A stretch of DNA of 64,000 nt from Halomarina rubra (GTDB lineage: Archaea > Halobacteriota > Halobacteria > Halobacteriales > Haloarculaceae), in assembly GCF_023699475.1 (NCBI RefSeq), contig NZ_JALXFV010000002.1, positions 1 to 64,000 of the forward strand. Reading direction: 5' to 3'. Below the pieces are notes generated by a model that worked only from the letters and a program-made list of their open reading frames with translations, searched no databases and was not told where the DNA came from. Shown here piece after piece: positions 10,153 to 31,105 of this stretch. The translations under genes and the position numbers were made by a program. How positions within the stretch are numbered: the stretch's first letter is position 1; each line of letters opens with the position of its first letter.

Positions 10153-10188
10153 CATCACTGTGGCAGTGTGCATGGAGTAGTTAGAGAG

Positions 10189-13100
10189 ATGACGGAAGAC
10201 CCAGCGGAGAAGACAGCTGAGAGTGTATCGAACGGGACGTCTGCAACGGCTGAATCAGATGATGAGCACGATGTCACTGAAACCACGCCTGTGCGACGCC
10301 GAACGGTATTGAAAGGACTCGCCGCCTCGGGTGGTGTGGGAGCGTTCGGTGCCGGTGCGCTCAGCGGTGAGGCGACGGCAGCCTCGACCACCCAGGAGTC
10401 CGATGGATGGTCGATGAAAGAACCCCAGATGTACACTCCCTGGACCGGGGACGTCGGGCCGGAGAACGCCCACCCCGAGTATCCACGGCCACAGATGGAG
10501 CGCAAACAGTGGCAAAATCTCAATGGCGTCTGGCAGTTCTCGGGCGCCTCAGAAGGGGAGGAACCTCCAATCGGCGAAGACCTCGATGAGTCGATCCTCG
10601 TTCCCTACCCGGTCGAGTCGGGGCTCTCGGGTGTCAAGCGCCACGAAACGTGGATGTGGTATCGCCGGGCCTTCTCGGTCCCGGATGAGTGGATAGTTCC
10701 AACGGCTCACTCGGACGAGGACGTGGAGAACAACCCCAACTCCCAGCGACTCCTGTTGCACTTCGAGCGAGTCGACTGGGAGGCGACCGTCTATGTTAAC
10801 GGTCAAAAGGTGACTTCCCACAAGGGTGGGTACGACCATTTCGTCGCAGACGTGACGGATGCGCTCACCTCGGAAGGCGACCAGGAACTCGTCGTCGGTG
10901 TCTTCGACCCGACGAGCGTCAATTCGAAACCTATCGGTACCCAACCGAAGGGTCGACAGGGTGAGGGAACCGGCTACAAAGGCGAGGGCACACTCGAGAT
11001 GACTCCCTCGTCGGGTATCTGGGATACCGTGTGGCTCGAACCCGTTCCCGATTCACACGTCACGAACCTGGATATGACGCCAGACCTGAGCGAAGACGTG
11101 CTTCGCCTCACGGTCGACGCGACCAACGAAGACGTGACGGCGGTGGCCACCGCCTATATCGACGACGAGAAGGTGGGTCGTGTCACCGGAGGGGTCGGCG
11201 AGGAACTCGAACTCCCCGTTCCCGACCCCCATCTCTGGTCGCCTGATGATCCCTTCCTGTATGACCTCAGAGTAGATCTCAGACGAGAGCAGGATGGAGA
11301 AGACGGTGGGAAGCTCCTCGACCGTGTCGAGAGCTACTTCGGAATGCGGTCGATTGGGAAGGAGTCCTATGGGAACACGGCACGGCCAACACTCAACGGC
11401 GAGACGCTCTGGCACCTCGGGACGCTCGAAAGCGGGCAGTGGCCAGACGGACTGTACACCGCGCCAACTGACGAGGCGCTTCGCTACAACCTCGAGGCGC
11501 AGAAAGAACTCGGGTACAATATGGTCCGGAAACACGTCAAGGTAGAACCGAGACGGTGGTTCTACCATGCCGACCAGTTGGGGCTACTCGTCTGGCAGGA
11601 CATGCCCAACATGCACGAGGGCTTCGACACGCCTCCCCGCGACGAGGCGACCCTCGAGCACTTCAAAAAAGAGCTAATCGAGATGGTCACCGAGCACGAT
11701 AACCACCCATCGATGGCGGTCTGGATACCGATCAACGAGGGGTGGGGGATTAACAACGACAACCTCGACTACCAGCGTGAGCTAACTGCGCTGGTTTCTG
11801 AACTTGACCCCGAACGCCTTGTTGACCCCCACAGTGGGTACGACGTCGGGTCGAACCACGACCCAGGTGTGGGCGACATCAAGGACGTCCATCAGTACGG
11901 AACCCCGTGGTACCAGATTCCCGAACCCGAACCCGACCGTATCTCTGCACTCGGTGAGTACACGTCGACGTCGCTGGTCGTCGAAGACCACCACTGGGGT
12001 GAGTGCGACAGTCCCTCCAGTGCCGAAGAGTTCGTCGCCCAGTACGTCGAACGGGTCGAGGCACTCGAGAAGTTCATGGTGAGCCGAAGCATGAGCGCAT
12101 CAGTGTATACGGCCACGACAGGCCTTGAAAACGTCTGCAACGGCATCATCACGTACGACCGCGAGGTGGTGAAACCAACACTCGCTGATGATGGCCTTCG
12201 TCGAGTCCGCGATGCCCACGCAAGTATCATCAAGGCGTCGCGTGACCTGATGGGTAATGTTCAATTCGACTTCGACGTTCCTTCGACATATGACGTCTCT
12301 GATGGCGCAGAGCCGTTTGAGGTGACCGCGACGCTGATGAACCCCGAAAGCGGGAGTGACGTTGCTGTTGAGGACGTCGACATGCGTTTGGGTGGCCTGC
12401 CAGACAGTTGGACGATTACCCCAACGACCGAGACGTCATTCGAGTCGGTCGGTGATGGCGAGTCCGTCTCCGCGACGTGGGAAATCACGCCAGATTCGAC
12501 TGCTGCTGGCGACATCGAACTCGACGGGACCATCGACTACGTCGTCAATGGTGAGCAATACCAGTACACCAATACGTGGGTGCTAAGCGCGGCTCGGCTC
12601 GTCTACTATCGCTATGAGAACTCGAATGCGGACAGTTCGAGCTACGACAACCCGTTCACGAATCACGGCGCGACATTCGACGACACAACGGCCGCTGAAG
12701 GCGACTACTCGCTGCAGTTCGATGGAACGGACGACTACATCCAACTCAACGACTTCGGGGAAGGCATCCTCCACGACGCGTTCACCGAGCGGACGTTCGA
12801 GACGTGGCTTGCCCCTGAGTCGACAAGTGGACTACAGGCGATCTACAGCGAAGGTGGCATCTACAACGGCATGGGCGTTCGCCTCAACGATGGCACGCTC
12901 CAAGCGAGCGTCGCCACCAATGGGCAGACAGTGACTGTCGACAGCGCGTTTGATGTGAGTGGTTGGACACACGTCGCTGCTGTCTTCGATAACGGCGCAC
13001 TCCGCCTGTTCATCGACGGCGAACAGGTTGCTGAGAATCCCGATGTGGGGTACTCGCGAGTCCCCGGTCACGTCGCAGCAACCGCCATCGGCGGCTCGGT

Positions 13101-13221
13101 GACATCGAACCCATGGGGTGACGGTCGCGAGAACTTCTTCGGTGGAAATCTCGATGCGACGTCCATCTACACTGTCGCACTCTCGGCCGCAGACATCGCC
13201 GAGAACGCGACGCAGAACTGA
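10189..13221 (+). CDS. Tat-exported GH2 glycoside hydrolase with LamG domain
   Basis: A 1010-residue exported enzyme. Residues 36-43 are a twin-arginine motif (RRRTVLKG) followed by a hydrophobic stretch. Then come a GH2 sugar-binding domain (about 80-265), an Ig-like GH2 domain, and a TIM barrel with the acid/base motif PINEGWG (Glu517) and probable nucleophile in LGEYTS (Glu590). Residues about 690-800 resemble a NEW3-like beta domain, and the last 200 residues form a LamG/concanavalin-like domain (LQFDGTDDYIQLNDF, WTHVAAVFDNGALRLFIDG). GH2 covers beta-galactosidases, beta-glucuronidases and others; here beta-galactosidase or an arabinan-related activity is inferred from context. It probably works at the cell surface on polymer. 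A GTG at 10,168 is an alternative start. Confidence 0.88.
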   Translation: MTEDPAEKTAESVSNGTSATAESDDEHDVTETTPVRRRTVLKGLAASGGVGAFGAGALSGEATAASTTQESDGWSMKEPQMYTPWTGDVGPENAHPEYPRPQMERKQWQNLNGVWQFSGASEGEEPPIGEDLDESILVPYPVESGLSGVKRHETWMWYRRAFSVPDEWIVPTAHSDEDVENNPNSQRLLLHFERVDWEATVYVNGQKVTSHKGGYDHFVADVTDALTSEGDQELVVGVFDPTSVNSKPIGTQPKGRQGEGTGYKGEGTLEMTPSSGIWDTVWLEPVPDSHVTNLDMTPDLSEDVLRLTVDATNEDVTAVATAYIDDEKVGRVTGGVGEELELPVPDPHLWSPDDPFLYDLRVDLRREQDGEDGGKLLDRVESYFGMRSIGKESYGNTARPTLNGETLWHLGTLESGQWPDGLYTAPTDEALRYNLEAQKELGYNMVRKHVKVEPRRWFYHADQLGLLVWQDMPNMHEGFDTPPRDEATLEHFKKELIEMVTEHDNHPSMAVWIPINEGWGINNDNLDYQRELTALVSELDPERLVDPHSGYDVGSNHDPGVGDIKDVHQYGTPWYQIPEPEPDRISALGEYTSTSLVVEDHHWGECDSPSSAEEFVAQYVERVEALEKFMVSRSMSASVYTATTGLENVCNGIITYDREVVKPTLADDGLRRVRDAHASIIKASRDLMGNVQFDFDVPSTYDVSDGAEPFEVTATLMNPESGSDVAVEDVDMRLGGLPDSWTITPTTETSFESVGDGESVSATWEITPDSTAAGDIELDGTIDYVVNGEQYQYTNTWVLSAARLVYYRYENSNADSSSYDNPFTNHGATFDDTTAAEGDYSLQFDGTDDYIQLNDFGEGILHDAFTERTFETWLAPESTSGLQAIYSEGGIYNGMGVRLNDGTLQASVATNGQTVTVDSAFDVSGWTHVAAVFDNGALRLFIDGEQVAENPDVGYSRVPGHVAATAIGGSVTSNPWGDGRENFFGGNLDATSIYTVALSAADIAENATQN

Positions 13222-13335: not shown

Positions 13336-14919
13336 TCAGTGTTCGAGGTGCTCGCTGGTCTCTTCCATTCGCTCGTGGTGAGTTCGACCATCAAGTGGAT
13401 ACGCACCGATTCGTTCAGCAAATGCCTCCCATTGCTCGCCGAGGTCCTCGACGATATCCGGGAACTCCGCCGAGCGGTCGTCGAGTTCGGTCCGGTCAGC
13501 ATCCATGTCATAGAGTTCCCAGCGACCGTTCTCGCCTTTCGAGACGAGTTTCCAGCGGTCGGTTCGAACAGCTCGGTTCGCCTCATGCTCCCAGAACAGT
13601 GGCTTACGGTCGAGTCCCTCACCGTCGAAGGCGGGCCAGAGGCTCGTCCCATCGAGTGGGCGGATGTCTGTTCCATTTCGGTGGTCAGGGTATGTTGCCT
13701 CCGCGACGTCGAGGCAGGTCGCCATCACGTCGACGACGTGCCCAACATCGGTGATGAGGTCACTATCCGAGACGATGCCATTCGGCCAGTGGGCAATGAG
13801 CGGCGTTGCGATGCCACCTTCGTGCACCCAATGTTTGTAGCGTCGGAACGGTGTGTTGCTGAGATTCGCCCAGTACCGCCCGTAACTGGAGATGGGCGTC
13901 ATATCGTGGCCCGCCTCGGCTTCCGCCCCCATCGGCCCGTCCCACCCATATGGTCCGCCCTCGGCACACCCACCGTTATCAGACAAAAACAGAAACAGCG
14001 TATCGTCGAGTTGGCCCGTTTCAGAGAGGGTATCGACGAGTCGACCGATGCCCTGGTCCATTGCATCGACCTGTGCTGCATAAATCGCCATCTTCCGGGC
14101 CATCTGCTCTTTGGTTTCTGTGTCGAGGTCGGCCCAGTCTTTGCTGTCACCGAGAGAGAGCGGCCACGCCGAGTCGATGATGCCCTCTTCGATGAGGCGC
14201 TCATACCGCGCTTGCCGGAGATCGTCCCAACCAGCCAGATACTGTGCTTCGTAGCGCTCGATATCCTCAGCCTTCGCGTTGAGTGGCCAGTGTGGTGCCG
14301 TATACGCGACATAAAGGAAAAACGGGTCATCCGCTTGATCGGCGTCGTGGTCGCGAACGAACTGTGCGGCCTCATCGCTGATGGCGTCGGTGTAGTAATA
14401 GCCCTCCTCGGGTGGGTCGAGACGGTCGTTACCACGCGTGAGGTCGCTCGGTGAGAAGTAGTTGTTCGCACCGCTGATCGTGCCGTAAAAGCGGTCGAAA
14501 CCACGTTGCAGTGGCCAGTTGTGTTTCGAAGCATCTGCAGCGACGTACTCTGAGCGCGTCAGGTGCCACTTGCCGCTCATATATGTCGCATAGCCCTGCT
14601 CGCTCAGCACCTCGGGTATCGTCACACATTGATCGTTCAGGTCACCTGCGTACTCCTGTGTCCCAAGATCCTTCGCCGTCATCCACCCCATCCCAGCCTT
14701 GTGGGGGTACTGACCGGTCAACAGGCTCGCGCGTGTGGGACAGCAACGTGCGCAGTTGTAGAACTGGGTGAATCGCTGCCCATCTGCCGCCAATCCATCG
14801 AGAGTCGGCGTCTGAATCTCACTACCGTAACAGCCGATATCGGAATACCCCATGTCGTCGGCCATCACGAGAACGATGTTCGGTGCCGTCTCTCTCCCGT
14901 TACCGTGGTCGCTCGCCAT
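13336..14919 (-). CDS. Type I sulfatase (arylsulfatase family), Cys-type
   Basis: A 527-residue alkaline-phosphatase-fold sulfatase. The N-terminal metal-binding strand APNIVLVMADDMGYSD supplies the first aspartates, and CCPTR at Cys59-Arg63 fits the CxPxR signature whose cysteine becomes formylglycine. HWPLNAKAEDIERYE and FLFLSDNGGCAEGG add the other metal and substrate residues, and WKLVSKGENGRWELYDMDAD is the usual C-terminal region. The protein has no signal peptide and is predicted to be cytoplasmic, unlike most bacterial polysaccharide sulfatases. The start at 14,919 (MASDHG) is chosen; an upstream start would add 16 residues without family support. It needs the FGE encoded at 40,115. 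The next sulfatase is divergent from it, with a gap of about 140 bases. Confidence 0.9.
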   Translation of the reverse strand: MASDHGNGRETAPNIVLVMADDMGYSDIGCYGSEIQTPTLDGLAADGQRFTQFYNCARCCPTRASLLTGQYPHKAGMGWMTAKDLGTQEYAGDLNDQCVTIPEVLSEQGYATYMSGKWHLTRSEYVAADASKHNWPLQRGFDRFYGTISGANNYFSPSDLTRGNDRLDPPEEGYYYTDAISDEAAQFVRDHDADQADDPFFLYVAYTAPHWPLNAKAEDIERYEAQYLAGWDDLRQARYERLIEEGIIDSAWPLSLGDSKDWADLDTETKEQMARKMAIYAAQVDAMDQGIGRLVDTLSETGQLDDTLFLFLSDNGGCAEGGPYGWDGPMGAEAEAGHDMTPISSYGRYWANLSNTPFRRYKHWVHEGGIATPLIAHWPNGIVSDSDLITDVGHVVDVMATCLDVAEATYPDHRNGTDIRPLDGTSLWPAFDGEGLDRKPLFWEHEANRAVRTDRWKLVSKGENGRWELYDMDADRTELDDRSAEFPDIVEDLGEQWEAFAERIGAYPLDGRTHHERMEETSEHLEH

Positions 14920-15056
14920 ACAAGCGCGATTCCCCCCGGTACCAAGAAGTTTGTTGGTGGATAGCACGATTTGAGCACTTCGTGTGCCCTCGATAGTCGG
15001 TGACGCTGCTCGGCGGTACGTTCTTTGTGCTACTCACGGTGGCTTTCGTATCGCTC

Positions 15057-16487
15057 ATGCCAGCCGATTCGCCGAACATCGTCTTCGTACTGACTGACCA
15101 GCAGCGACTCGACAGTATCGCAGCACTGAGCGACGTCGATGTCGACACACCGAACCTCGACCGCCTCGCGACCGAGGGGGCGGCGTTCACGAACTGCCAC
15201 GTCACCGCACCATCGTGTGCGCCATCGCGGGCGAGTCTGTTCACCGGACTGTACCCGCATACGACGGGCATCCACCGTAACGGCGACGAATGGCGCCACG
15301 GCTGGGTCGAGCAGCTCTCGGAGGCGGGCTACCACTGCGTCAACGTCGGGAAGATGCACACACAGCCCTACGAGACGCCGATGGGCTTCGACGAGCGCTA
15401 CGTCGTCGAGAACAAAGACCGCTATCTCTCCGACCGCTATTACTTCGATGAGTGGGATAAGGGGCTCCGGGCACGTGGCCTAGTCAAACAACAGCGCGAA
15501 CAGTACCGTGAGCGCGAGGATTACGACGAACGCCTCGGTGCATTCCGGTGGGAGCTTCCAGCAGAGACACAGTCGGACAACTTCGTCGGCGAGTTCGCCC
15601 GCTGGTGGGTCGATACGAAGCCCGAACCTGACGGCCCGTTGTTCTTGCAGGTGGGCTTTCCCGGACCACATCCACCATATGACCCAACGCCAGCGTACGC
15701 CGCCGAGTATCTCGACCGGTCGTTTACTATCCCACCAGTAACCGACGACGACCTGGATGGTCAGCCACCACCGCTTCACGACCTTCGTGAACACCACGCT
15801 GACGTCGACCACGACTCGGTGGTCCATCGACTCGACCCGACCGACGAGCAGCGCCACCGCCAGCGAGCGTTCTACTACGCCAACGTCGCGATGATCGACC
15901 AGCAGGTGGGTCACCTATTCGACGCGCTGGAGGAGAACGGCTACCTGGAAGACTGTATCATCGTGTTCGCCTCTGATCACGGTGACATGCTGGGCGACCA
16001 CGGTCACAGCCAGAAGTGGACGATGTACGATGAGTCCGTCCGCGTCCCGGCGATTGTCTGGGCATCAGATGACAGCGTTGTCCCCGGTGAGCGCGAAGGC
16101 CTCTGTCAGCTGTTCGACCTTGGGCCAACAGTACTCGAACTGGCTGGACTCGAGCCACCGGAGTGGATGCAGGCGACCTCACTCGTCCCAGCACTTACCG
16201 ATGCCTCCTGGACGGGTCGTGATGTTGTGTTCGCCGAACAGGCTGGCGATGGCATCCTTGAGACGCCATACATGACGATGGTGTTCGACGGCCAGTGGAA
16301 ACTGGTCCACTTCCTCGATGAACCGTTCGGCCAACTGTTCGATACGGTGGCCGACCCAGACGAAACGACCAATCGCTGGGACGACCCAGACGCGATGGCA
16401 GCAAAACGCCGACTGCTCGGGGAATTTCGTGACTGGCGGATTCGCAGTCAACTCCAAGCCGAAGAGTGGGCGACAGCGCACCGGTGA
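15057..16487 (+). CDS. Type I sulfatase, Cys-type
   Basis: A 476-residue sulfatase starting directly with the first metal strand (PNIVFVLTDQQRLDSI), so it has no signal peptide. The formylglycine signature is CAPSR with Cys54, followed by SLFTGLYPHTTG. IIVFASDHGDMLGDHG is the second metal site, and WKLVHFLDEPFGQLFDTVAD the C-terminal part. The TDQQR start and DHGDMLGDHG motif are typical of the iduronate-2-sulfatase/choline-sulfatase-like branch, but the substrate is not defined by sequence. The chosen ATG removes a 19-residue hydrophobic-looking extension that begins in the shared promoter region; if that longer form were used it could act as a signal anchor, which I consider unlikely. Confidence 0.9.
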   Translation: MPADSPNIVFVLTDQQRLDSIAALSDVDVDTPNLDRLATEGAAFTNCHVTAPSCAPSRASLFTGLYPHTTGIHRNGDEWRHGWVEQLSEAGYHCVNVGKMHTQPYETPMGFDERYVVENKDRYLSDRYYFDEWDKGLRARGLVKQQREQYREREDYDERLGAFRWELPAETQSDNFVGEFARWWVDTKPEPDGPLFLQVGFPGPHPPYDPTPAYAAEYLDRSFTIPPVTDDDLDGQPPPLHDLREHHADVDHDSVVHRLDPTDEQRHRQRAFYYANVAMIDQQVGHLFDALEENGYLEDCIIVFASDHGDMLGDHGHSQKWTMYDESVRVPAIVWASDDSVVPGEREGLCQLFDLGPTVLELAGLEPPEWMQATSLVPALTDASWTGRDVVFAEQAGDGILETPYMTMVFDGQWKLVHFLDEPFGQLFDTVADPDETTNRWDDPDAMAAKRRLLGEFRDWRIRSQLQAEEWATAHR

Positions 16488-16646: not shown

Positions 16647-19181
16647 ATGGCAGAGCCAACGGGTTCGCCCTCAATAGGGGCGGGTACGGACAGACGAACG
16701 TTTATGAAGGGTATCGGCCTCCTCGGAGCGGCCAGTGTGGCCGGACGCGTCGGGCAGGCAGCGGTCTCCCCCGGCGACGGAGGACGGGTCTCGGTCAGTG
16801 TCGACGCGAGTCGGGGGTCGATGAGCGAGTGGACCATCGACGAGCGCATCTTCGGGAAGTTCATCGAGCACAACGGCCGGGATGCGTATCCCGGTATTTA
16901 CTCCGATCACCTCTCGAACGGCTCGTTCGAAGTGTGGAACACGAGCGGGGGGCGTGACTCGGTCATCTTCCGCGATACACAGGAATACGACGGCATCGCA
17001 TACCCCTGGGAGCCACTCGATGACGATGCGGTCGGCTTCGAGAGCGACTTCACGCAGGTTGAAGGCGGCGTTCATGGACGGACGGCTGAACCTGACATCG
17101 CCTCTGGTGAGGAGATTGGCAGCGGCAACATGCCCCAGCCACAGGGCGTCGAAACCCCCCGCTATCAGCGAGTCGAGGTCGACGATCACAATGGCATCAC
17201 TCAGCGAACGGCGTTGCCCGACCACCGGACGCTTGAGTACGTCGCGAAGTTCACCGTTCGTGGTGAGTGTCCTGACGACGGATTCACAGTCCGACTTGAT
17301 GACCCCGATGGGACGGTACTCGCCGAAGAGACCGTCTCCGTGACGACGGAATGGGAGCGCCACGAGGTTCGACTCGAACTCGACCGGGCGTCGAGCGAAC
17401 GGTATGACTCCTGTCCGCTCTGTACTGGCGGTGAGGGTACCGTCGACACCCCGTTCGGCGAATACAGTCTCACCTTCGTCGCCGAGGGGGCGAACTACAT
17501 CGACCTCGACTTCGTGATGCTCCAGTCGGGGGATGCCGTCGCCGGGAAGTTCAACCCGACAACGATCGACCTGCTCAAAGAATTCAACGTCACGACCATC
17601 CGATGGCCGGGCGGGAACTTCGCCAGCCAGTATCACTGGCGTGATGGCATCGGCCCGCTCGAAGACCGGCCTGTCGTCCCGAACCTCAACTGGGGTGGGC
17701 TCGAACGCAACTACCTCGGGACGAACGAGTTCTTGGAGTTCTGTGAGCTGGCGGAAATCGAGCCGCTGTTCACCGTGGGGTCGTGGGTCCATATCGGCGC
17801 AGAGGAAGCCGCCGAGTGGGTCGAGTACGTCAACGGGTCGACTGACACCGAGATGGGCGCACTCCGGGCAGAACACGGCTATGAAGAGCCCTGGGACGTC
17901 ACTGCCTGGCAGGTCGGCAACGAGTCATATGGCCCATACCAGATCGGCTATCAGGGGTCGGCCGCGGCGTTCGCCGACCGCTACGTCGAGTACTACGACG
18001 CGATGACGGCTGTCGACCCATCGATCGAGGTTGATGCAGCGGGCATAGACCCCTACTACACGGACTTCGACGATGGTGACCACGGCTCGGTCCTTAGTCG
18101 CCGGTTTTGCGAACCGCCTCGGTGGAACACCATCCTGATGGACCGAGCGGGTGACGCACTCGAAGGGCTGGATATCCACCGCTACACTCGGGGTATCGTC
18201 AATGACGGCGCTCGAGAGAGCTGGCTCGAAGAGAACGGCGAGGACCCGGTCGGCTACAACGAGATACTCGTCAACTACCCAACCGAGTACCAGCACTTGC
18301 TAGCCGGTGGCGGGCCGCCAGATGACCCACCGGTCAACTGTGGTGGCTATGAGTACACCTCGGACAACGAGTTCGAAGACCTCTCCGAACGGTCGCTTCT
18401 CGACCAGGCCCGCGAATTAGGAATCGAGGACCTGCGTGTCAACGTCGGGGAGTGGAACCTCCAGCCGAACGTCGCCAGCGGGTGGCCACGGGCAGACTAC
18501 CCAACGATGGCCCATGCGGCGTACATGGCGAGTACACACTTCCGGTTCATGGACTTCGGGAACCTCGTGCAGTTGTCCTATATGCGGGACAACACGCTGT
18601 TCTGGCGGCCCTACCCAATCGACTTCCGGCCGGTGAATCCGGGGAACTACGCCCAGCGGACCTACGCTGAACCGCTCGTCGAGTCCAACCGGGAATGGCA
18701 TCGCCTGCCGACCAACGTCGATAGCCAGACGCTCATCATCCCGGAGACCGGTATCCGAATCTACGAACTCGCAGGCGTTCCGTACGTCGACGCAGTCGCG
18801 ATGCGAGCGGGCGACGTCGACGGGGAGCAGGCAAATCGCGGCGCCGGTGGCTATGGGAAGAACTCGGTCGTCGTCAACGCGACCAATCGAAACCTCACCG
18901 AGACGTACACCGTCTCGTTCGACGTCTCCGGGTGGGTGGGCGAGAAAGGCAACGGGCAGGGGCCAAAGGTCCCTGTCACGTTGCAGGTCGGAACCGATAG
19001 CGACCCGTTCGCTCGACAGTCTAACTGGTCGTACGTCCTCGACGAACCACAAGACGGCTTCGAGACCCGTGAGTTCGAGGTCGAACCGACCGAAGACGGG
19101 ACAGTCGAAGTCGAGATGCCACCGGCATCCATCGCGACGTTACAGTTCCAGGTATCGAAGAGCGGAGGTGAGAACCGATGA
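16647..19181 (+). CDS. Tat-exported GH51-type alpha-L-arabinofuranosidase
   Basis: An 844-residue GH51-type enzyme with a Tat signal (DRRTFMKG, arginines 16-17, then a small-residue hydrophobic run). A jelly-roll carbohydrate-binding-like insert (about residues 165-300) precedes the TIM barrel. Acid/base Glu426 lies in VGNESYG and the nucleophile Glu602 in VGEWNLQ. It is longer than cytoplasmic GH51 enzymes because of the signal region and extra loops. It probably removes arabinofuranosyl side chains outside the cell. Its stop overlaps the start of the lectin-like gene by four bases, so the two are translationally coupled. Long stretches of DNA around the active site are nearly identical to the gene at 20,588, pointing to a recent tandem duplication. 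Confidence 0.9.
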   Translation: MAEPTGSPSIGAGTDRRTFMKGIGLLGAASVAGRVGQAAVSPGDGGRVSVSVDASRGSMSEWTIDERIFGKFIEHNGRDAYPGIYSDHLSNGSFEVWNTSGGRDSVIFRDTQEYDGIAYPWEPLDDDAVGFESDFTQVEGGVHGRTAEPDIASGEEIGSGNMPQPQGVETPRYQRVEVDDHNGITQRTALPDHRTLEYVAKFTVRGECPDDGFTVRLDDPDGTVLAEETVSVTTEWERHEVRLELDRASSERYDSCPLCTGGEGTVDTPFGEYSLTFVAEGANYIDLDFVMLQSGDAVAGKFNPTTIDLLKEFNVTTIRWPGGNFASQYHWRDGIGPLEDRPVVPNLNWGGLERNYLGTNEFLEFCELAEIEPLFTVGSWVHIGAEEAAEWVEYVNGSTDTEMGALRAEHGYEEPWDVTAWQVGNESYGPYQIGYQGSAAAFADRYVEYYDAMTAVDPSIEVDAAGIDPYYTDFDDGDHGSVLSRRFCEPPRWNTILMDRAGDALEGLDIHRYTRGIVNDGARESWLEENGEDPVGYNEILVNYPTEYQHLLAGGGPPDDPPVNCGGYEYTSDNEFEDLSERSLLDQARELGIEDLRVNVGEWNLQPNVASGWPRADYPTMAHAAYMASTHFRFMDFGNLVQLSYMRDNTLFWRPYPIDFRPVNPGNYAQRTYAEPLVESNREWHRLPTNVDSQTLIIPETGIRIYELAGVPYVDAVAMRAGDVDGEQANRGAGGYGKNSVVVNATNRNLTETYTVSFDVSGWVGEKGNGQGPKVPVTLQVGTDSDPFARQSNWSYVLDEPQDGFETREFEVEPTEDGTVEVEMPPASIATLQFQVSKSGGENR

Positions 19182-20500
19182 GCGACGAGGACCATGAGAG
19201 CGCGATAAACCGACCCTCTCGGCGGTCGGTGCTGCTCGGTGGTGCACTCGGAGTCGGTGCACTCACCGCGGGCGGTGCGTCCGGAATCGTCGGCGACGCG
19301 CTCGGCGAGACGCGGACGCAGTCGGTGCCCACCGCCCCAGTCGGTGAGGTCGGAATCACCACAGTCACCTCGGAGTGGTCGACGGTCTCGTTCGACCGCG
19401 AGTACGACTCGCCAGTCGTCATCGCCCGCCCACTGTCGTATCGTGGTACGGACTTCAACACGTTCGGTGATGACGCCCCCGCACACACGCGAGTGCGGAA
19501 CGTGAGCGCCCAGAGCGCAGAACTTCGTGTCGAGGAGTGGGAGTACCAAGACGGCACCCACGGCGAGAACGAGGTCTCGTATCTCGTCATCGAACAGGGG
19601 AGACACGAACTCCCCGATGGGACGAGCATCCAGGTAGGGACGACCGTCCCCGATCCGGCGTCGCCGTTCTACAAGGCGACCCACGGAACGACGGTTTCGT
19701 TCGGCTCGACGTTCTCAGAGCGCCCGGTCGTCCTGAGCGGCGTCCAGACGGCGAACGACGAGACTGCGGTCGTCACCCGACAACGTAACGCGACGGCCAG
19801 CAGTGTCGACCTCGCCTTGCAGGTCGAACGTGGGGTCGGCGGTGCCCGACCGGCCGGCGAGCACGGCCAGGAGACGATTGGGTGGGTCGCCATCGCTTCG
19901 GGGTCGGGGACGAATGGCGACGCGCCATACGAGGTTGCGAGCGTCGGCGGCGTCTCCCAGCAATGGTCGACTGTGGGCTTCGAGACGACCTTCGACGCAC
20001 CACCAGCGTTCATCGCCAGCATGGCGACGACAAACGGCGATCAACCGGCCAACCTCCGCTATGCAGACCGCACCGCCGAAAGCGTCCGCGTCTTCTCACA
20101 CGAAGAGCAATCGGGCGGGTTCGCGGAACTCATCCACGCGGGCGAGCGGGTCGACTACCTGGCGATGCCTCAGGAAGCGTCGCTTATCGCCCTGAACGTC
20201 TTCGACGTTGGCGAACCCACCTTGCGTGAGACGACCATCGATGAAGGCGATGAGGCGGTCGTCACCGTCGACGTGACGAACAACGCCGAGAGTGAGGAGA
20301 CGTTCGTCGCAGTGGTACGCGTCGAGGGGGCGAACATCGACGGCACGTACGAGACATCGACGAGCGTCGACATCGCGGGCGGCGTGACCCAGTCGGTGTC
20401 GTTGCCGGTCGAATTCGCAGTAAGCGGGACGTTCGACGTTTCGCTGAACGACATTCCCGTAGGGACCCTCACCGTCGACGAAGTCACTCCCGACTGCTAG
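19178..20500 (+). CDS. Tat-exported repeat protein, H-type-lectin-like
   Basis: A 440-residue protein with a Tat signal (SRRSVLLGG, arginines 15-16). The mature part holds two to three repeats built around W-S-T-V-x-F...F-x-x-P-x-V: EWSTVSFDREYDSPVVIARP near residue 65, a second weaker copy near 165 (TVSFGSTFSERPVVLSGV) and a third near 265 (QWSTVGFETTFDAPPAFIAS). This pattern is like the H-type lectin fold, which binds N-acetylgalactosamine or galactose in known members. The C-terminal 100 residues form a CARDB-like beta domain. No catalytic motif is seen. Coupled to an exported GH51 enzyme, it is best read as a glycan-capture protein of the surface. The lectin assignment is an inference. 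Confidence 0.6.
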   Translation: MSDEDHESAINRPSRRSVLLGGALGVGALTAGGASGIVGDALGETRTQSVPTAPVGEVGITTVTSEWSTVSFDREYDSPVVIARPLSYRGTDFNTFGDDAPAHTRVRNVSAQSAELRVEEWEYQDGTHGENEVSYLVIEQGRHELPDGTSIQVGTTVPDPASPFYKATHGTTVSFGSTFSERPVVLSGVQTANDETAVVTRQRNATASSVDLALQVERGVGGARPAGEHGQETIGWVAIASGSGTNGDAPYEVASVGGVSQQWSTVGFETTFDAPPAFIASMATTNGDQPANLRYADRTAESVRVFSHEEQSGGFAELIHAGERVDYLAMPQEASLIALNVFDVGEPTLRETTIDEGDEAVVTVDVTNNAESEETFVAVVRVEGANIDGTYETSTSVDIAGGVTQSVSLPVEFAVSGTFDVSLNDIPVGTLTVDEVTPDC

Positions 20501-20516
20501 GCGTCTCACCACCTGC

Positions 20517-20527
20517 GGCGGTTTTTC
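20517..20527 (+). terminator. Possible transcription terminator
   Basis: A GC-rich run ending in five T residues about 20 bases after the lectin-like gene. Archaeal termination commonly uses T-runs. Weak evidence; the next gene has its own TATA-like box. Confidence 0.25.
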
Positions 20528-20556
20528 TCGGGGCGTTCCAGTGTCTCCGCGACAAC

Positions 20557-20564
20557 GCTTATGA
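20557..20564 (+). promoter_or_regulatory. TATA-like box for the GH51-sulfatase pair
   Basis: GCTTATGA centred about 27 bases before the ATG at 20,588, fitting a leaderless start. It suggests that the cytoplasmic GH51 and its overlapping sulfatase form a unit separate from the exported GH51-lectin unit. Confidence 0.4.
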
Positions 20565-20587
20565 ATCCATCCGTGTGAGTACGGGAC

Positions 20588-22798
20588 ATGCCTGACCGGA
20601 GCAGACGCCATGACCGGCCAAGCGGTGCGAACCGTCGCGTAGCCACCGACGGGGGGACGACCGACGACGAGACTGTCATCACATTCGCCGACGATGGTGG
20701 AGGGTCACCCACTGTCTCGCCCGGTTTGCTCGGGAAGTTCACCGAGATGAACGGCCGGGAGGGCTACCCGGGGCTGTACTCCGAACATCTGGCCAACGGG
20801 TCGTTCGAGGAGTGGTACACGTGGCCGAAACGGACGCCAGACGACGACCCACGGTGGTGGCGACGAAGCGAGATTGTCGATCGCGAGGCTGACTCTGTCG
20901 CGGGCGTCGCCTACCCATGGCAACCTATCCGGAGCGACGACACACGCGTCACCTTCGAACACGAGGTCGGTGGCGTCCACGGACGTCACGACGACTGCCA
21001 TCGCGAGGACGTCCACGGACGGCAGTATCGCGAGCCGCCAGGGCGTTATCAACGAGTCACTCTCTGGTCGGGGGCTGCGGGCGTCCGCCAGCGGCTTGCA
21101 CTCCCGGACCGCCGGACCCCAGAGTATGACCTTTCAGTGAGCGTCCGCGGCACAGGACTGGACGGGACGGTCACTGTCGCACTCACCGGTGCTGACGGCG
21201 ACGTGAGGAGCGAGACGACGCTCACGTTCGACTCGACGCCAGCGGGTGGGGCAGACGGCAACGGCGAGTGGGAGCGCCATGAGACGACGCTTGAGCTTCC
21301 TGAGGCGGGTTCGGCACGGTACGGCGATGATTCCTCTGCGTTCGGAGCATACGACCTTTTGTTCACCGTTGAGGGAAGTGGTCATCTCGACGTTGATTGG
21401 GCACGACTCATCGCGAGTGACGCCGTCGATGGCGCATTCAACCCGACGACCGTCGACACCGTCCGGGACCTCTCGATACCCTGTATTCGGTGGCCGGGCG
21501 GGAACTTCGTCAGCCAGTATCACTGGCGTGATGGTATCGGCCCGCTCGAAGACCGGCCCGTTCGGGCAGAGCTGCACTGGGGTGGGCTTGAACCGAACTA
21601 CCTCGGTGTCGCCGAGTTCCTCACGTTCTGTGAGCACGCCGAGACTGAGCCGTATCTCAACGTCGGGTTCAGCCCCGAAATCACACCCGAAGAAGCAGCG
21701 GACATGGTCGAGTACGTCAACGGGTCGACTGACACCGAGATGGGCGCACTGCGTGCCGAACACGGCTATGAAGAGCCCTGGGGGGTCGAGACTTGGCAAG
21801 TTGGCAACGAGGTCTGGGGAACGTTCCAGATTGGTCATACCGGACCGAGGGAGTACGCCGAACGCTACGTCGAGTACTATGAGGCAATGAAACGCGTCGA
21901 CCCATCCATTACAGTCTTTGCGGTCGGTGGCGACCCCGGAAACGGCCACTGGGAGGGCACACAGTGGAACGAGACGCTATTCGACATCGCTGGAGACGCC
22001 GTTGAGGGCATCGACGTCCATCGCTACGTCCACGGCGAGCACACTGGACAGGAGCCCGTCGAGTTCAACCAGCAGCTTGTCGCATATCCATCTCAGTTCG
22101 AGCGACGACTCGCCCAATGTGTCGAGCAAGCCGAGGCAGTGGGCATCGATGACCTCCAACTCACTGTTGGCGAGTGGAACATGGGTGCGGGTGGGCTTTC
22201 AGAAGGCCGCCGCGCACGCTATGGAACACAAGCACACGCTGCGTTCTGTGCGGGGATGTACAACGCCTTCCTCAGACAGGGCGTTAAGTACGCCCACATG
22301 CGAGATAACGCGTTCAAACACCGGCCGTTCCCGGATGACTTCAGGCCGCCTCACGCTGCGAACAACGCCACCCACCGCCTGTATGCAGAGGTGTTTGATG
22401 ACGACCGGGCGTGGTCGGTCGTCCCAGTCGACGTAACGGGCCCGACGACCACACTTGACCAGCATCGCCGTGGCGACCCACCAGCCGAGACGATTGCACC
22501 GGAGACGGTCCCGCTCGTCGACAGTGCAGCCGTACGGAGCGCCCATGAGGCGGTCATCTTCCTGGTCAATCGCGACCTCAGCGAGTCACGGACGGTCACT
22601 GTCGCGCTTGGGGCTCCTGATGAGTCGGTCGATATCACCGTCCAGTCCGCGACTGACCCGCTCGATGACCACACCGATTGGGACGGAACTCACTCGTATG
22701 ATCTCGAGGACCGGACGACCTCCACTGGCGAGGACGGAACCGTTACCGTGACGCTCGGGCCGGCCGCGGTCGGTCGACTCCGGATACAGGACCGATGA
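20588..22798 (+). CDS. GH51-type alpha-L-arabinofuranosidase, cytoplasmic
   Basis: A 736-residue GH51-type enzyme lacking a signal peptide. Layout is a short N-terminal strand region, a jelly-roll carbohydrate-binding-like insert, and a TIM barrel with WPGGNFVSQYHWRDGIGP, acid/base Glu408 (VGNEVWG) and nucleophile Glu529 (VGEWNMG), then a C-terminal beta domain. It is the cytoplasmic twin of the exported enzyme at 16,647, with DNA identity high enough around the active site to suggest duplication followed by loss or gain of the signal peptide. Its stop overlaps the start of a sulfatase gene by four bases, so arabinose release and desulfation are likely made in fixed proportion. Confidence 0.9.
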   Translation: MPDRSRRHDRPSGANRRVATDGGTTDDETVITFADDGGGSPTVSPGLLGKFTEMNGREGYPGLYSEHLANGSFEEWYTWPKRTPDDDPRWWRRSEIVDREADSVAGVAYPWQPIRSDDTRVTFEHEVGGVHGRHDDCHREDVHGRQYREPPGRYQRVTLWSGAAGVRQRLALPDRRTPEYDLSVSVRGTGLDGTVTVALTGADGDVRSETTLTFDSTPAGGADGNGEWERHETTLELPEAGSARYGDDSSAFGAYDLLFTVEGSGHLDVDWARLIASDAVDGAFNPTTVDTVRDLSIPCIRWPGGNFVSQYHWRDGIGPLEDRPVRAELHWGGLEPNYLGVAEFLTFCEHAETEPYLNVGFSPEITPEEAADMVEYVNGSTDTEMGALRAEHGYEEPWGVETWQVGNEVWGTFQIGHTGPREYAERYVEYYEAMKRVDPSITVFAVGGDPGNGHWEGTQWNETLFDIAGDAVEGIDVHRYVHGEHTGQEPVEFNQQLVAYPSQFERRLAQCVEQAEAVGIDDLQLTVGEWNMGAGGLSEGRRARYGTQAHAAFCAGMYNAFLRQGVKYAHMRDNAFKHRPFPDDFRPPHAANNATHRLYAEVFDDDRAWSVVPVDVTGPTTTLDQHRRGDPPAETIAPETVPLVDSAAVRSAHEAVIFLVNRDLSESRTVTVALGAPDESVDITVQSATDPLDDHTDWDGTHSYDLEDRTTSTGEDGTVTVTLGPAAVGRLRIQDR

Positions 22799-24264
22799 CA
22801 ACGCCGGCTCGCCCCAACGTCGTCCTCGTCACGACCGACCAGCAACGGGCCGATGCGACGGCCCGCGAGGGGTTCGCCCTCGACACGACGCCGTTTCTCG
22901 ACTCGCTGGCCGCAGACGGCGTCTGGTTCGACCGGGCGTACACAGCAACGCCCGTCTGTGCACCCGCCAGAGTAAGCCTCCTCACCGGCCGGTATCCAAG
23001 CGCCACTCGCGTCCGCCGAAACGACGAGACGGGGGCCGCGGTGTTCACCGACGACCTATTCGATGTGTTCCGATCGGCGGGGTACGCGACTGCGATGGTC
23101 GGGAAGAATCACTCACATCTCACGCCTGATGCGGTCGACCATTGGTTTGAACTGAGCCACTGGGGGGCAAAAGGCCCTGAGGCACACGCCACTCGGAGCG
23201 AGGAGGCGGCCGCATTCGACGAGTGGATCGACGAGTTGGGCTGGAGTCCGAGTCTGGAACCAACGCCGTTCCCAATCGAGTGTCAGGCAGCCGCCCGAGC
23301 GGTCGACCACGCCGCGGAGTGGGTTGCGGACGTGAGCGAGCCGTTCTTTTGTTGGCTGTCGATACCCGAGCCACACAACCCCTATCAGGTTCCCGAACCG
23401 TACTTCTCACTGTTCGATCCGGCCGACCTGCCGCCAGCGATGTCTCGTGATGTCATTGATGACCGAGGGTTCGAGTGGTCATGGTCACGCCGACTTCTCG
23501 AACAGCGCATCGCTGACCGGCATCCATCGCTTGCGCCCGCCGATGCCATCTCACGAATGCGAGCCAACTACTACGGGATGTGCCGGCTCATCGATGATCA
23601 ACTGCGGGCGTTCGTCGATGGCCTTGAGGAGTCGGGTCATCGCGACGAAACGCTCCTCGTCGTGACCAGCGACCACGGCGACTTCGTCGGCGACGCAGGA
23701 CTGATGCGAAAGGGTCCCGGGTTGCCCGAGAGCACGACGCGGGTGCCGCTTGTCGTCGCTGGTTCAGACATCAACCGGTCTAAGGGACCCCACCCAGATC
23801 ACGTCTCTCTTGTAGATGTCTTGCCGACGCTGTGTGAGGCACTCGGTGTCGACAGTCCCCCTGGTGTGCAGGGGCGGTCGTTCTGGCAGTTGGTGACGGG
23901 CGACCGAGCGGACAGTTCAGCCAAACCGCCTGAGGAGTTCACGAGCGTCTACGCCGAGGCCGGCGATGGGTCACCCATCGTCGGCTCGGACGGGGTTCCG
24001 GACCCCGAGGAGGCGACTCCGAACGAACTCAATCCGGTGACGCTGAGCGGCACGACCCGAATGGTCCGGCAGGGTGACTGGAAGCTCGTCGTCTCGGCCC
24101 GCGGTGAGCGACGACTCCTCAACCTCAAAGATGACTCAGCCGAACGCATCAACCACTGGGATGACCCAGCGACCCAACAACACCGGCAAGTACTGACCGA
24201 CGAACTCCTTGAGTGGCTGCTCGAAGTCTCTGATTCGTGTTCCGGTGTGAATCAGCAGCTTTGA
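22795..24264 (+). CDS. Type I sulfatase, Cys-type
   Basis: A 489-residue sulfatase starting RPNVVLVTTDQQRAD, so without a signal peptide. The formylglycine signature is CAPAR with Cys55, followed by SLLTGRYPS. The second metal region is LLVVTSDHGDFVGDAG, where the usual GDH(G) histidine position after the glycine-aspartate is replaced by DAG; active-site details may therefore differ from the sister enzymes. The C-terminal region ends with WKLVVSARGERRLLNLKDD. Overlap with the GH51 gene gives translational coupling. The substrate is unknown, but linkage suggests a sulfate on an arabinose- or galactose-containing oligosaccharide. Confidence 0.9.
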   Translation: MTTPARPNVVLVTTDQQRADATAREGFALDTTPFLDSLAADGVWFDRAYTATPVCAPARVSLLTGRYPSATRVRRNDETGAAVFTDDLFDVFRSAGYATAMVGKNHSHLTPDAVDHWFELSHWGAKGPEAHATRSEEAAAFDEWIDELGWSPSLEPTPFPIECQAAARAVDHAAEWVADVSEPFFCWLSIPEPHNPYQVPEPYFSLFDPADLPPAMSRDVIDDRGFEWSWSRRLLEQRIADRHPSLAPADAISRMRANYYGMCRLIDDQLRAFVDGLEESGHRDETLLVVTSDHGDFVGDAGLMRKGPGLPESTTRVPLVVAGSDINRSKGPHPDHVSLVDVLPTLCEALGVDSPPGVQGRSFWQLVTGDRADSSAKPPEEFTSVYAEAGDGSPIVGSDGVPDPEEATPNELNPVTLSGTTRMVRQGDWKLVVSARGERRLLNLKDDSAERINHWDDPATQQHRQVLTDELLEWLLEVSDSCSGVNQQL

Positions 24265-24431
24265 GCGCAGGGACGACTGGAACATAGAGCCACGTCGCCG
24301 AGGGGGGCCCGCATGTCATGCGAGATGTCGACACTCCCCGAAAGGACTAAACGAAAACGCGTCCCATCTGTGCTAACATCGCGACAGTTCGCCATTATGA
24401 AAGCTAGTACATATCATGGATGGGTGGGACG

Positions 24432-25460
24432 ATGACGGACGACGTCATCCTCAAGGTCCGGGACGCCAGCGTCACGTTCGACATGGAGCGTGGTGAGTCG
24501 AAGGTGCTCAACGACGTCTCAGTCGACATCTACCGCGACGAGATTCTCGGCGTCGTCGGCGAGTCAGGGAGCGGGAAATCGATGTTCGCCGAGGCGCTGC
24601 TCGATGCCGTCGTCGAGCCGGGGCAGTTGACAGGCGAGGTGACGTACTACCCACGTGATGGTGACCCCATCGACGTGCTCTCACAGACTCCAGAAGAACT
24701 CCGAGCATTCCGGTGGGAGGAAATCTCGATGGTGTTCCAGGGGGCGATGAGTTCGTTCAACCCGACGAAGTCGATTCGTGGACACTTCGTCGAGACGATT
24801 CGCGCCCACGGCGAAGACAAACAATCCGGGATGGAGCGAGCGCGTGAGCTCCTTTCTGATTTGTATCTCAATGCCGACCGTGTCCTCGATTCCTACCCGC
24901 ACGAACTCTCTGGGGGGATGAAACAACGGACGCTCATCGCGCTGTCGCTCGTCCTCGACCCCGAAGTGCTCGTGATGGACGAACCGACCGCAGCACTTGA
25001 CCTCCTCATGCAGCGGTCGATTCTCCGCCTGCTCAACGAGATCCAATCGAAGTACGACCTCACCATCGTCTTCATCACTCACGACCTGCCGCTGGTGGCC
25101 GAACTCGCCGACCGACTCGCCGTGATGTACGCCTTCGAGTTCGCCGAAATCGGGACGACAAGTGAAATCCTCAATGGGGCAGCTCACCCTTACACCAGAG
25201 CGTTGCTGAACGTGACGCCGAACATCGAAGCACCGGTCGAAGAGATGCAGGTCATCGAAGGGTCCTCACCCGACCCGGTGAACGTCCCTGCGGGCTGTTC
25301 GTATCACCCTCGCTGCCCGCTCGCAACGTCGAAATGCCAGCAGTCCGACCCCGAATACTACGACGTCGGCGAGGACCACCAAGCACGCTGTCACCATTGG
25401 AAGAAGGCCAGACGGGAGATCGAACTGAGCCAGCGTGAACAAGCGGGGCGGTCGCGATGA
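24432..25460 (+). CDS. Opp/Dpp-type ABC transporter ATP-binding protein (DppD-like)
   Basis: A 342-residue ATPase subunit. Walker A is GESGSGKS, the signature motif LSGGMKQR, and Walker B LVMDEPTAALD. The C-terminal oligopeptide-transporter extension contains the cysteine cluster CSYHPRCPLATSKC typical of the family, which can hold an iron-sulfur cluster in some relatives. It overlaps the next ATPase gene by four bases. Members of this transporter class import oligosaccharides in Pyrococcus and Sulfolobus, and the setting here supports a glycan role instead of peptide uptake. The ATG at 24,432 follows a GGTGGGA sequence; an in-frame ATG at 24,420 is an alternative start. Confidence 0.9.
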   Translation: MTDDVILKVRDASVTFDMERGESKVLNDVSVDIYRDEILGVVGESGSGKSMFAEALLDAVVEPGQLTGEVTYYPRDGDPIDVLSQTPEELRAFRWEEISMVFQGAMSSFNPTKSIRGHFVETIRAHGEDKQSGMERARELLSDLYLNADRVLDSYPHELSGGMKQRTLIALSLVLDPEVLVMDEPTAALDLLMQRSILRLLNEIQSKYDLTIVFITHDLPLVAELADRLAVMYAFEFAEIGTTSEILNGAAHPYTRALLNVTPNIEAPVEEMQVIEGSSPDPVNVPAGCSYHPRCPLATSKCQQSDPEYYDVGEDHQARCHHWKKARREIELSQREQAGRSR

Positions 25461-26569
25461 GTGGTCGCTCGTCTCCAGTTGTCTCGATGGAGGACACTGA
25501 AGTCCACTTCGAGAGCGACTCCGGGATTCTGGACTTCTTTAGCGAAGACGAGACAGTGCAGGCCGTCGACGGCGTCTCGCTCGACATCCACGAAAACGAG
25601 GTCATCGCACTCGTCGGTGAGTCCGGCTGTGGAAAAACGACGCTTGGGAAGACCGCCATCGCTGTCCAAGAACCGACCGGTGGCTCGGTTCGCTACCGAG
25701 GTCACGACGTCTGGGAGGCGAAGGCGGGCAACGGCGAGATGCCGTGGAAGCGAATCCGCCGGGCGCTCCAAATCATCCACCAAGATCCTGGGTCGTCGCT
25801 GAACCCCAACCGGACCGTCATCAACAGCCTCGACTTGCCGCTTCGAAACTATGACTCGTCGCTCTCGTATGAGGACCGCCGTGCCCGCATCCTCGGCATG
25901 ATCGAGCGGGTCGGGATGACACCCCCACAGGACTACGCCGAGCGCTATCCCCACCAGCTCTCTGGGGGCGAGAAACAGCGCGTCGCACTCATCCGTGCGT
26001 TATTGATGGAACCAGATCTCATCCTCGCTGATGAGGCCATCAGCGCACTCGACGTGTCGTTGCGTGTCGAAATGATGGACCTCATGCTCGAGCTCCAAAA
26101 GCAGTTCAACACCGCCTTCCTGTTCGTCAGCCACGACCTCTCGAACGCGCGGTACATCACGGAGAAGGCAGGCGGACGAATCGGTGTGATGTATCTCGGT
26201 CGCCTGGTCGAAATCGGTACGCCTGAGCAGATCATCACCGACCCACAACACCCCTACACCAAGGCGTTGCGGTGGGCGACGCCCAAACTGTATGAGGATA
26301 AGGACAGCGAGGAGATGCCCATCCGTTCTATCGACATCCCCGACCCCGTCAATCCGCCGTCGGGCTGTCGTTACCACACGCGGTGTCCGAACGCCCGAGA
26401 GGTATGTACACAGGTTGATCCCGATACGATGTCTGTCGACGGCTACAGCGGACAGCGTGCGGCATGCTTCCGTGTCGACGACCACCACGAGTACTGGGAT
26501 AGCCCATCGATCGTTGAGGATGACTCCCTCATCAGCGACGAAGACGACAATCCAGAACTCCAGAACTGA
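25457..26569 (+). CDS. Opp/Dpp-type ABC transporter ATP-binding protein (DppF-like)
   Basis: A 370-residue ATPase subunit, partner of the preceding gene. It has Walker A GESGCGKTT, signature LSGGEKQRV, Walker B-like LILADEAISALD and a C-terminal cysteine cluster CRYHTRCPNAREVC. In the Walker B region the common DEP is DEA, a frequent variant in this subfamily. Its genes are convergent with the permease/binding-protein genes of the same transporter, which is unusual because Opp/Dpp systems are normally one operon. An acidic 25-residue tail ends the protein. Confidence 0.9.
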   Translation: MSGRSSPVVSMEDTEVHFESDSGILDFFSEDETVQAVDGVSLDIHENEVIALVGESGCGKTTLGKTAIAVQEPTGGSVRYRGHDVWEAKAGNGEMPWKRIRRALQIIHQDPGSSLNPNRTVINSLDLPLRNYDSSLSYEDRRARILGMIERVGMTPPQDYAERYPHQLSGGEKQRVALIRALLMEPDLILADEAISALDVSLRVEMMDLMLELQKQFNTAFLFVSHDLSNARYITEKAGGRIGVMYLGRLVEIGTPEQIITDPQHPYTKALRWATPKLYEDKDSEEMPIRSIDIPDPVNPPSGCRYHTRCPNAREVCTQVDPDTMSVDGYSGQRAACFRVDDHHEYWDSPSIVEDDSLISDEDDNPELQN

Positions 26570-26728
26570 CCGCAGTTCCGGTAGTACTTTTCTCTCGCTC
26601 ACCGACCGACGTGAGTAGATGCGCTACACCACACTTCCCACAATCACACTCGCCCGGAGGACAGCTCCTTGGCCACCGGAGTTGTCTGGAGCTGTGGTGG
26701 AAGACAGATTCCACCAGGGGAGCCGCCG

Positions 26729-26944
26729 ATGAACGAGGAGTTCTGGGACACCGTTTGTGGGCTGGCAGACATCTGGCGTCCGCTCGCAATCCTTGCATTC
26801 GTCATCGGGCTTCTTTCACTGGCGACACTACCATTTCTCGACCGCTCAAGCGGTACGTTCGTCGCCGCGATCCTCACTATCGTCATGGCTGTGGTGACGC
26901 TGGCACTGTTCGGCATGATTCGATACCAGTGCCAGCGCCGATAG
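26729..26944 (+). CDS. Small two-helix membrane protein, function unknown
   Basis: A 71-residue protein with two predicted membrane segments (about residues 16-36 and 43-62) and a short basic C-terminus. I do not recognise the family. It lies between the two convergent halves of the ABC transporter, 160 bases after the second ATPase gene. A GGGGAG sequence about 7 bases before the ATG at 26,729 supports this start; longer in-frame versions add 20 residues of unlikely composition. It could be an accessory subunit of the transporter, but nothing proves this. Confidence 0.55.
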   Translation: MNEEFWDTVCGLADIWRPLAILAFVIGLLSLATLPFLDRSSGTFVAAILTIVMAVVTLALFGMIRYQCQRR

Positions 26945-27021
26945 CGAACGTACCGGTGTAGCCCGACAGAAACGCTATCGAAAGAACGACCGTCGAGAGA
27001 AAACCAGTTTCGTCGACCTGC

Positions 27022-28002
27022 TCAGTCGTTGACTTCGTCGGGCTGTGCGTGACGCGCCCGCAGTCGTGGGTTGAAGATGCGGTCGGCGGCCTGCCCAAGC
27101 ATGATGAGGCCGAACGACAGCCAAATGATGGCAATCATCGGGAAGATGAGCCAGTGGGCAGTCTCCCACGTGTAGAGCGCGCCGGTTGAACTGTACGCTC
27201 GGTTCATCATGACCCCCCAATTCAGGAAATCAGGCTCGGGGAGGATGAACAGGAAGTACAGCGCCACGGAGCCGAAGATGACCCCACGTGACGCGTTGAC
27301 GAAGTTGATGGTGATGAACGGCATCAGGTTTGGAACCAGCTCACGGCGGATGACAGTGGGCGTTGAGAGGCCGTTGATACGCGAGGCTTCGACGAACGAC
27401 TGCTCACGTAGGCTCAGCACCTCCGAGCGAATCGCACGGGCGAGCCCTGCCCACCGCGGAATGCTGATTAGGATACCAACGACAAACGGATTGGTCGGTT
27501 GGACGATGACCCCGAGAACGATGATGAGCGGCAGCCCAGGAATGGCGATGACGGAGTCTGTAATCAACATCAACAGCCCGTCAGTGCGGCCACCCTTGTA
27601 CCCTGACAGCGTTCCGACAGCGGTGGCGATAATGATGGTGAACACCGCACCGCCAGCGATCATCTTCAACATCGCGGGCGTGGCATGAACGATGAGGCCG
27701 AACAGGTCCGCACCGTAGCGGTTCGTCCCGAGGATGTGTTCGGTGCTCTCGAACGCACCCATGAGGATAGTCGAACTGTTCTCCGGGTAAGGGATGAGCC
27801 AGACGCCAATGGTCCCCGCGAGGACGTAGGTGAGCAACGTTGCCAGCCCGAAGGCACCGCGTGGGTCCGTGATGAGGATACGCAATGGAGCGACGACGTT
27901 CGATTTAAACAGTCGTCGATATCGGTCTGAACGCGTCGCCTCGATGTCGGCGACCGTGTTGAACGGTGACGTCGAGTTGACGTCACGCTCTGGTGAACTC
28001 AT
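27022..28002 (-). CDS. Opp/Dpp-type ABC transporter permease (DppC-like)
   Basis: A 326-residue inner permease with a cytoplasmic N-terminal tail of about 45 residues, then a first membrane helix, and a five-helix core. The EAA-loop region (EASRINGLSTPTVIRRELVPN) that contacts the ATPase is intact. It overlaps the DppB-like gene by four bases (upstream on the minus strand). The product pairs with that permease to form the channel. Length and topology are normal for the family. Confidence 0.88.
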   Translation of the reverse strand: MSSPERDVNSTSPFNTVADIEATRSDRYRRLFKSNVVAPLRILITDPRGAFGLATLLTYVLAGTIGVWLIPYPENSSTILMGAFESTEHILGTNRYGADLFGLIVHATPAMLKMIAGGAVFTIIIATAVGTLSGYKGGRTDGLLMLITDSVIAIPGLPLIIVLGVIVQPTNPFVVGILISIPRWAGLARAIRSEVLSLREQSFVEASRINGLSTPTVIRRELVPNLMPFITINFVNASRGVIFGSVALYFLFILPEPDFLNWGVMMNRAYSSTGALYTWETAHWLIFPMIAIIWLSFGLIMLGQAADRIFNPRLRARHAQPDEVND

Positions 28003-29009: not shown

Positions 29010-29215
29010 CGACGCCCCCCAGTCGGCGTTCGTGCTGTGTCCCAATGAGGGATACCGGTCCGACCGCTCTCCGGCTGGACCGGGGTGTGAGCACCTACCA
29101 TAGAACGTCGGTTTGTCTCAATGGTATATACATCTTGCCGTGACGTCTGCGTGTCGTGGTTTTCTCGTCGGACAGCAGCCACTCAGGATGGTGAAAAACG
29201 GAGTTCGAGTGGCGG

Positions 29216-31084: not shown

Positions 31085-31105
31085 GACCACACATGCCATG
31101 TTGAG

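Follow-up and report, generated by a model that had tools for sequence, protein, structure and literature searches.

Two old GH51-type lineages, predicted to be exported and cytoplasmic, lie side by side in a haloarchaeal glycan-use cluster and carry short patches of likely gene conversion

Introduction

Haloarchaeal growth on arabinan and arabinoxylan, as well as haloarchaeal GH51 genes, have already been described (PMC9726719, PMC3102087), and so has a sulfatase in haloarchaeal glycosaminoglycan clusters (PMC13260240). Gene conversion tracts have been reported to span kilobases in Haloferax (PMC11276520), and a median tract of 101 bp has been reported for conversion between paralogues in Mycobacterium (PMC13061034).

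Here, we analyze a window of 64,000 nucleotides, located on a 747-kb contig of a 4.07 Mb haloarchaeal genome (Halomarina rubra). The whole genome encodes three GH51-type genes of this kind, termed here A, B, and C, and all of them lie inside the window. With a probability of roughly 78%, we read the locus as a glycan-use cluster in which an old exported and an old cytoplasmic GH51 lineage stand side by side, share short patches of gene conversion, and divide the breakdown of a polymer between the outside and the inside of the cell.

Results

GH51-type enzymes and their overlapping partners

Gene A (16647..19181, + strand) encodes, based on sequence and structure model, a GH51-type enzyme of 844 aa; it carries a Tat-type signal and is predicted to be exported. 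Gene B (20588..22798, + strand) encodes a GH51-type enzyme of 736 aa without a signal, predicted from its sequence to be cytoplasmic. The structure model of A (pLDDT 80.4) displays a GH-A type barrel and a C-terminal beta domain, like solved GH51 enzymes. Its best match to solved GH51 arabinofuranosidases had an E-value of 2e-30 (Foldseek), and the first 46 structural matches listed were all GH51-kind alpha-L-arabinofuranosidases. For B, a comparison with PDB sequences recovered a GH51 match (E 1e-43). Reading the motifs and alignments, we assigned the catalytic acid/base to Glu426 (GNE) and the nucleophile to Glu602 (VGEWN) in A, and to Glu408 and Glu529, respectively, in B. Both catalytic Glu columns (NE and GEW-type motifs) were invariant across 26 relatives. 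A and B are GH51-type enzymes by fold (A), sequence (B), and catalytic motifs, with the release of alpha-L-arabinofuranose as a predicted activity; their scores of 165-183 bits lie far under the ArfA equivalog cut-off of 625 bits.

As the first-pass annotation had recorded, each of the two genes is overlapped by a different partner, in both cases by four bases with the sequence ATGA. At 19,178-19,181, the stop of A overlaps the start of a predicted Tat-exported protein with three H-type-lectin-like repeats (19178..20500, + strand), and at 22,795-22,798, the stop of B overlaps the start of a type I sulfatase without a signal that carries a CAPAR motif (22795..24264, + strand). The lectin-like protein scored 23.2 bits against PF09458, for which the curated cut-off is 24, and its homologue L138 scored 29.5 bits. 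In the structure model, single modules matched the H-type lectin fold with probabilities of 0.66-0.98 but with E-values above 0.1, and a fold search with the whole chain returned no match at E below 0.001. The triple H-type-lectin-like module (L136-L154) is widespread in haloarchaea, being present in 26 of 294 genomes, and frequently comes with a Tat signal; a protein search revealed two more lectin-like copies on contig C10 (one at G000:C10:161273-162871). Elsewhere, the module is found in proteins that also match the GH26, GINT1_N, subtilase or beta-helix families. The triple module appears to be a binding module of haloarchaea that has yet to be described.

A sulfatase-rich glycan-use cluster

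The genes preceding A include an IclR-type regulator (4723..5454, - strand), a GH127-type enzyme without a signal (5689..7656, -), gene C, which encodes a third, more distant GH51-type enzyme of 721 aa without a signal (7780..9945, -), and a GH2 enzyme with a Tat-type signal and a laminin-G-like C-terminus (10168..13221, +). These are followed by two type I sulfatases, one with the motif CCPTR (13336..14967, -) and one with CAPSR (15000..16487, +). The start codon of the latter is uncertain: a GTG start yields a hydrophobic N-terminus, and an internal ATG (MPADSPNIVF) would make the protein cytoplasmic. Beyond the sulfatase that overlaps B, an Opp/Dpp-type ABC transporter comprising two ATPases (+) and two permeases (-) occupies 24420..29045, next to a family 5 solute-binding protein whose true start is probably inside the frame (29216..31363, -). 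Two further type I sulfatases (32465..34054, - and 35547..37001, -) are accompanied by an SDR (34110..34916, +), by another SDR (-), a mandelate-racemase-type dehydratase (-) and an SMP-30/gluconolactonase (+) within 37038..40087, and by a formylglycine-generating enzyme, the expected sulfatase activator (40115..41092, +; PF03781, E 4e-82).

All five type I sulfatases keep the C-x-P-x-R motif, and the gene for the formylglycine-generating enzyme belongs to the same cluster. At least four of the five sulfatases have no signal, suggesting that desulfation takes place inside the cell. Related gene sets occur elsewhere (for example, at L129, with GH2, a C-type GH51, sulfatases, and a transporter), and the setting is an ordinary, though sulfatase-rich, haloarchaeal glycan-use cluster. 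We infer that its substrate is an arabinose-bearing, probably sulfated glycan. Beside the cluster, positions 1810-4552 hold a gene for RdfA (rod-determining factor A) and an adjoining gene for an SMC-like ATPase. At 42000-48000, the GC content falls to 51-56%, compared with 61% and 67% in the stretches on either side, and this region includes a GAF/PAS histidine kinase (43509-45992).

Two near-identical patches

The near-identical DNA blocks that the first-pass annotation had reported between A and B do exist, although its first block (17,620-17,700) overshoots the core by about 30 nt into ordinary sequence. The first core, patch 1, covers 63 nt, from 17607 to 17669 in A (+ strand; codons 321-341, PGGNF...LEDR) and from 21494 to 21556 in B (+ strand). 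Its copies are 97% identical, with one silent mismatch and one that changes an amino acid, and its 60-nt flanks are 55% and 67% identical. Patch 2 covers 72 nt, 17820..17891 in A (+ strand; codons 392-415, VEYVNGSTDTEMGALRAEHGYEEP) and 21707..21778 in B (+ strand), and lies directly before the acid/base Glu. Its copies are 96% identical, with three mismatches that are all silent, and its flanks are 58% and 65% identical. Within a block of 107 residues (A 318-424), 56 of 76 codons were identical between A and B, compared with 35 expected (z 5.1). Over the same block, codon sharing was not raised between genomes, as measured with the relatives L091 and L097 (A-L097 z 0.2, B-L091 z 0.4, L091-L097 z 0.7).

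To quantify the patches, we used a codon-rarity-weighted score, which was devised after the patches had already been seen. Among 1,200 family pairs with less than 60% identity, A-B ranked first with a score of 10.2, followed by a pair at 8.2; the second A-B patch, at 9.2, also exceeded the best patch of all 1,199 other pairs. Paralogues within the window served as controls and scored at most 4.1, compared with 9.9 and 9.7 for the A-B patches. No patches were found among the five sulfatases, ABC ATPases, permeases, and SDRs of the window, and conversion as a genome-wide habit was rejected, as none of these control pairs rose above 4.1. When synonymous codons were drawn independently from the usage of each gene, the observed scores were reached in 0 of 4,000 simulated runs. 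When the residual identity was spread uniformly instead, 0.3% of the runs attained the best score and none of the 4,000 attained the second. An unweighted runs test gave modest values for A-B (p 0.035 for run length and 0.007 for score), which we take as no more than suggestive, given that the conserved core gives high scores in control pairs as well (11 of 1,210 pairs at p of about 0.003).

The patches sit in the most conserved protein motifs, and they may not have been copied at all: the conserved motifs could have converged on the same codons by chance, or selection on synonymous sites (through rare-codon placement, RNA structure or an overlapping signal) could produce a similar picture. 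Coding sequences in general are reported to conserve rare codons at particular positions (PMC5438181), and the unweighted runs tests on other pairs favor the same region too. However, the synonymous codons at the patch positions differ in relatives from other genomes, and the absence of raised sharing in cross-genome pairs (z 0.2-0.7) led us to reject a general synonymous constraint in the block. Moreover, the codons common to the A and B patches include uncommon ones, and independent draws never attained their score. We consider this explanation unlikely.

Alternatively, a third gene, either a paralogue that has since been lost or a homologue that came in from elsewhere, could have given the patches to both A and B. 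The clues to the donor oppose each other, with both patches leaning slightly toward A in codon usage and patch 1 leaning slightly toward B in its residues, and this conflict would suit an outside source. Such a course would nevertheless demand that each patch was transferred twice, where a single exchange between A and B would suffice, and the genome holds no third gene with such codons, gene C included, making this origin very unlikely. Gene C has no significant patch with either A or B; conversion with C was rejected, as no patch exceeded the background (3.9).

Age and phylogeny of the pair

Along their full length, the A and B proteins are 40% identical by BLASTP and 49% by pairwise MAFFT; their pairwise codon alignment of 694 positions gave 48.6% amino-acid identity and a dS of 1.43. 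Outside A residues 318-424, 106 of the 225 codons at conserved residues were identical, compared with 101 expected from codon usage (z 0.7). Synonymous sites outside the patches thus have a dS of about 1.4 or are saturated, with codon sharing at chance level. In a protein tree with 52 relatives, B grouped with the cytoplasmic L097 of Halosolutus gelatinilyticus (support 100/100), and A grouped with the exported L091, from another genus of the same family (99/92; weaker, 73/90, in the DNA tree). Forcing A and B to be sisters cost 109 log-likelihood units and was rejected (AU p 7.5e-10). Their adjacency on the same strand, the 4-nt overlap of each with the next gene, and the near identity of the patches would fit two young copies whose fast divergence masks their age and whose patches are a remnant, but this is highly improbable, and the recent tandem duplication put forward by the first-pass annotation was rejected, because the two observations it had named beforehand as speaking against it, saturated synonymous sites outside the patches and the placement of A and B in different lineages (here, with different genera), are what we found, and a blastn comparison detected no significant match running across the gene ends.

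Together, the sequence comparisons show A and B to be old lineages of one GH51-type family that separated before A parted from L091 and B from L097, the relatives in other genera. Whether the pair arose by duplication or by separate acquisition, these comparisons date the event as old. Our genome searches recovered no second genome with both A and B. The closest relative of B, L097 (NZ_CP095492; 57.5%), likewise has no signal and adjoins an IclR gene and two GH2 genes; unlike B, it has neither an A-type neighbor nor the shared patch codons. Separately, cytoplasmic A/B-type GH51 proteins of G095 (L093/L094; Halosimplex genus group) and Saliphagus (L033) are about 77% identical outside the block, which suggests transfer between haloarchaeal families. 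These copies lie near C-type GH51, GH2, and dehydratase genes.

The trees differ between the patches and the rest of the genes. The DNA tree of the patches joined A and B (98/97) with end branches of 0.02, whereas the DNA tree of the rest of the gene, outside the block, rejected A+B and had end branches of 0.46 and 0.49, which is the pattern that conversion predicts. On the patches alone, the pairings A+L091 and B+L097 were both compatible with the AU test (p 0.36 and 0.17, respectively), because 135 columns are too few to exclude alternative pairings. The first-pass annotation had also raised gene conversion between the two genes. This part of its proposal stands for the two patches, in light of their scores, the simulations, and the patch tree, but does not extend beyond them, where codon sharing is at chance. 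Local conversion between A and B in the two patches is, on this evidence, likely.

Export signals follow the lineages

By motif reading, a twin-arginine motif followed by a hydrophobic stretch is present in A, where the signal is DRRTFMKGIGLLGAASVAG, in the lectin-like protein, and in the GH2 enzyme. RR pairs are also present in B, without a hydrophobic stretch behind them, in agreement with the earlier observation that one gene has a Tat signal and the other has none. Among the relatives, the same reading revealed a Tat signal in L091, as in A, and none in L097, L093, L033, L034, and L035, as in B. Tat status changed twice on the whole GH51 tree, a tally in which the automatic Tat call for L105, false because of an over-extended frame, is corrected. 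Since Tat status tracks the lineages, the difference between exported and cytoplasmic enzymes is not a product of recent copying at this locus. Judged from the motifs, it is at least as old as the lineage splits of A from L091 and of B from L097. The suggestion that the copies were divided between surface and cytoplasm after a duplication is accordingly abandoned.

Discussion

The pattern described above would be explained if gene conversion, a non-reciprocal recombination, had recently occurred at least once between A and B and copied two short coding stretches, 63 nt around PGGNF and 72 nt just before the catalytic acid/base. At these places, the conserved active-site motifs would have offered the two genes their longest match on which to pair. 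In the simplest scenario, the PGGNF and NGSTDTEMGALRAEHG motifs would have seeded a short exchange once or twice. Against conversion, an exchange over just 63-72 nt is unusual for genes whose sequence around the patches is about 60% identical, and the tracts reported for Haloferax are kilobases long. Regarding function, A, the Tat-exported lectin-like protein, and the GH2 enzyme would work on the polymer outside the cell, and the Opp-type transporter would import the fragments. Inside, B, C, and the GH127-type enzyme, together with the sulfatases activated by the formylglycine-generating enzyme, would finish them.

It is conceivable, if quite unlikely, that conversion seeded by the motifs recurs and prevents the sugar-contacting segments of the exported and the cytoplasmic enzyme from drifting apart as the rest of both proteins does. 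If so, the outer and inner steps of the pathway would stay matched to one sugar. More generally, conversion at about 60% DNA identity, with silent sites saturated, would show that haloarchaeal genes need no more than conserved active-site motifs for exchange to be seeded. The identity of A and B is local and the genes are old, and the pair cautions against dating a duplication by motif blocks that are nearly identical.

As enzymes, A and B resemble the solved GH51 alpha-L-arabinofuranosidases of Thermotoga (3ug3/3s2c) and Geobacillus (AbfA, 1pz3) in their catalytic fold (Foldseek with the model of A, E 2e-30 and TM by target 0.72) and in the NE acid/base and GEW nucleophile motifs (sequence E 1e-37 to 1e-43). 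They are longer (736-844 aa, compared with about 500 aa) and have an added beta-rich N-terminal region. The longest structural alignment of A, with 863 columns and a TM by query of 0.55, was to MgGH51 (6zps), a longer solved GH51 enzyme with a similar extended architecture, though the identity is just 14%. As recombination events, the patches share with the conversion described in Haloferax volcanii (PMC11276520) and Mycobacterium (PMC13061034) a local near-identity inside diverged genes, and their length is like that of the tracts between Mycobacterium paralogues. They differ from the equalization of polyploid genome copies in Haloferax volcanii, whose tracts span kilobases, and the A-B pair is far more diverged than usual conversion partners. 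The A-B patches add a neat, small example to a process that is already known.
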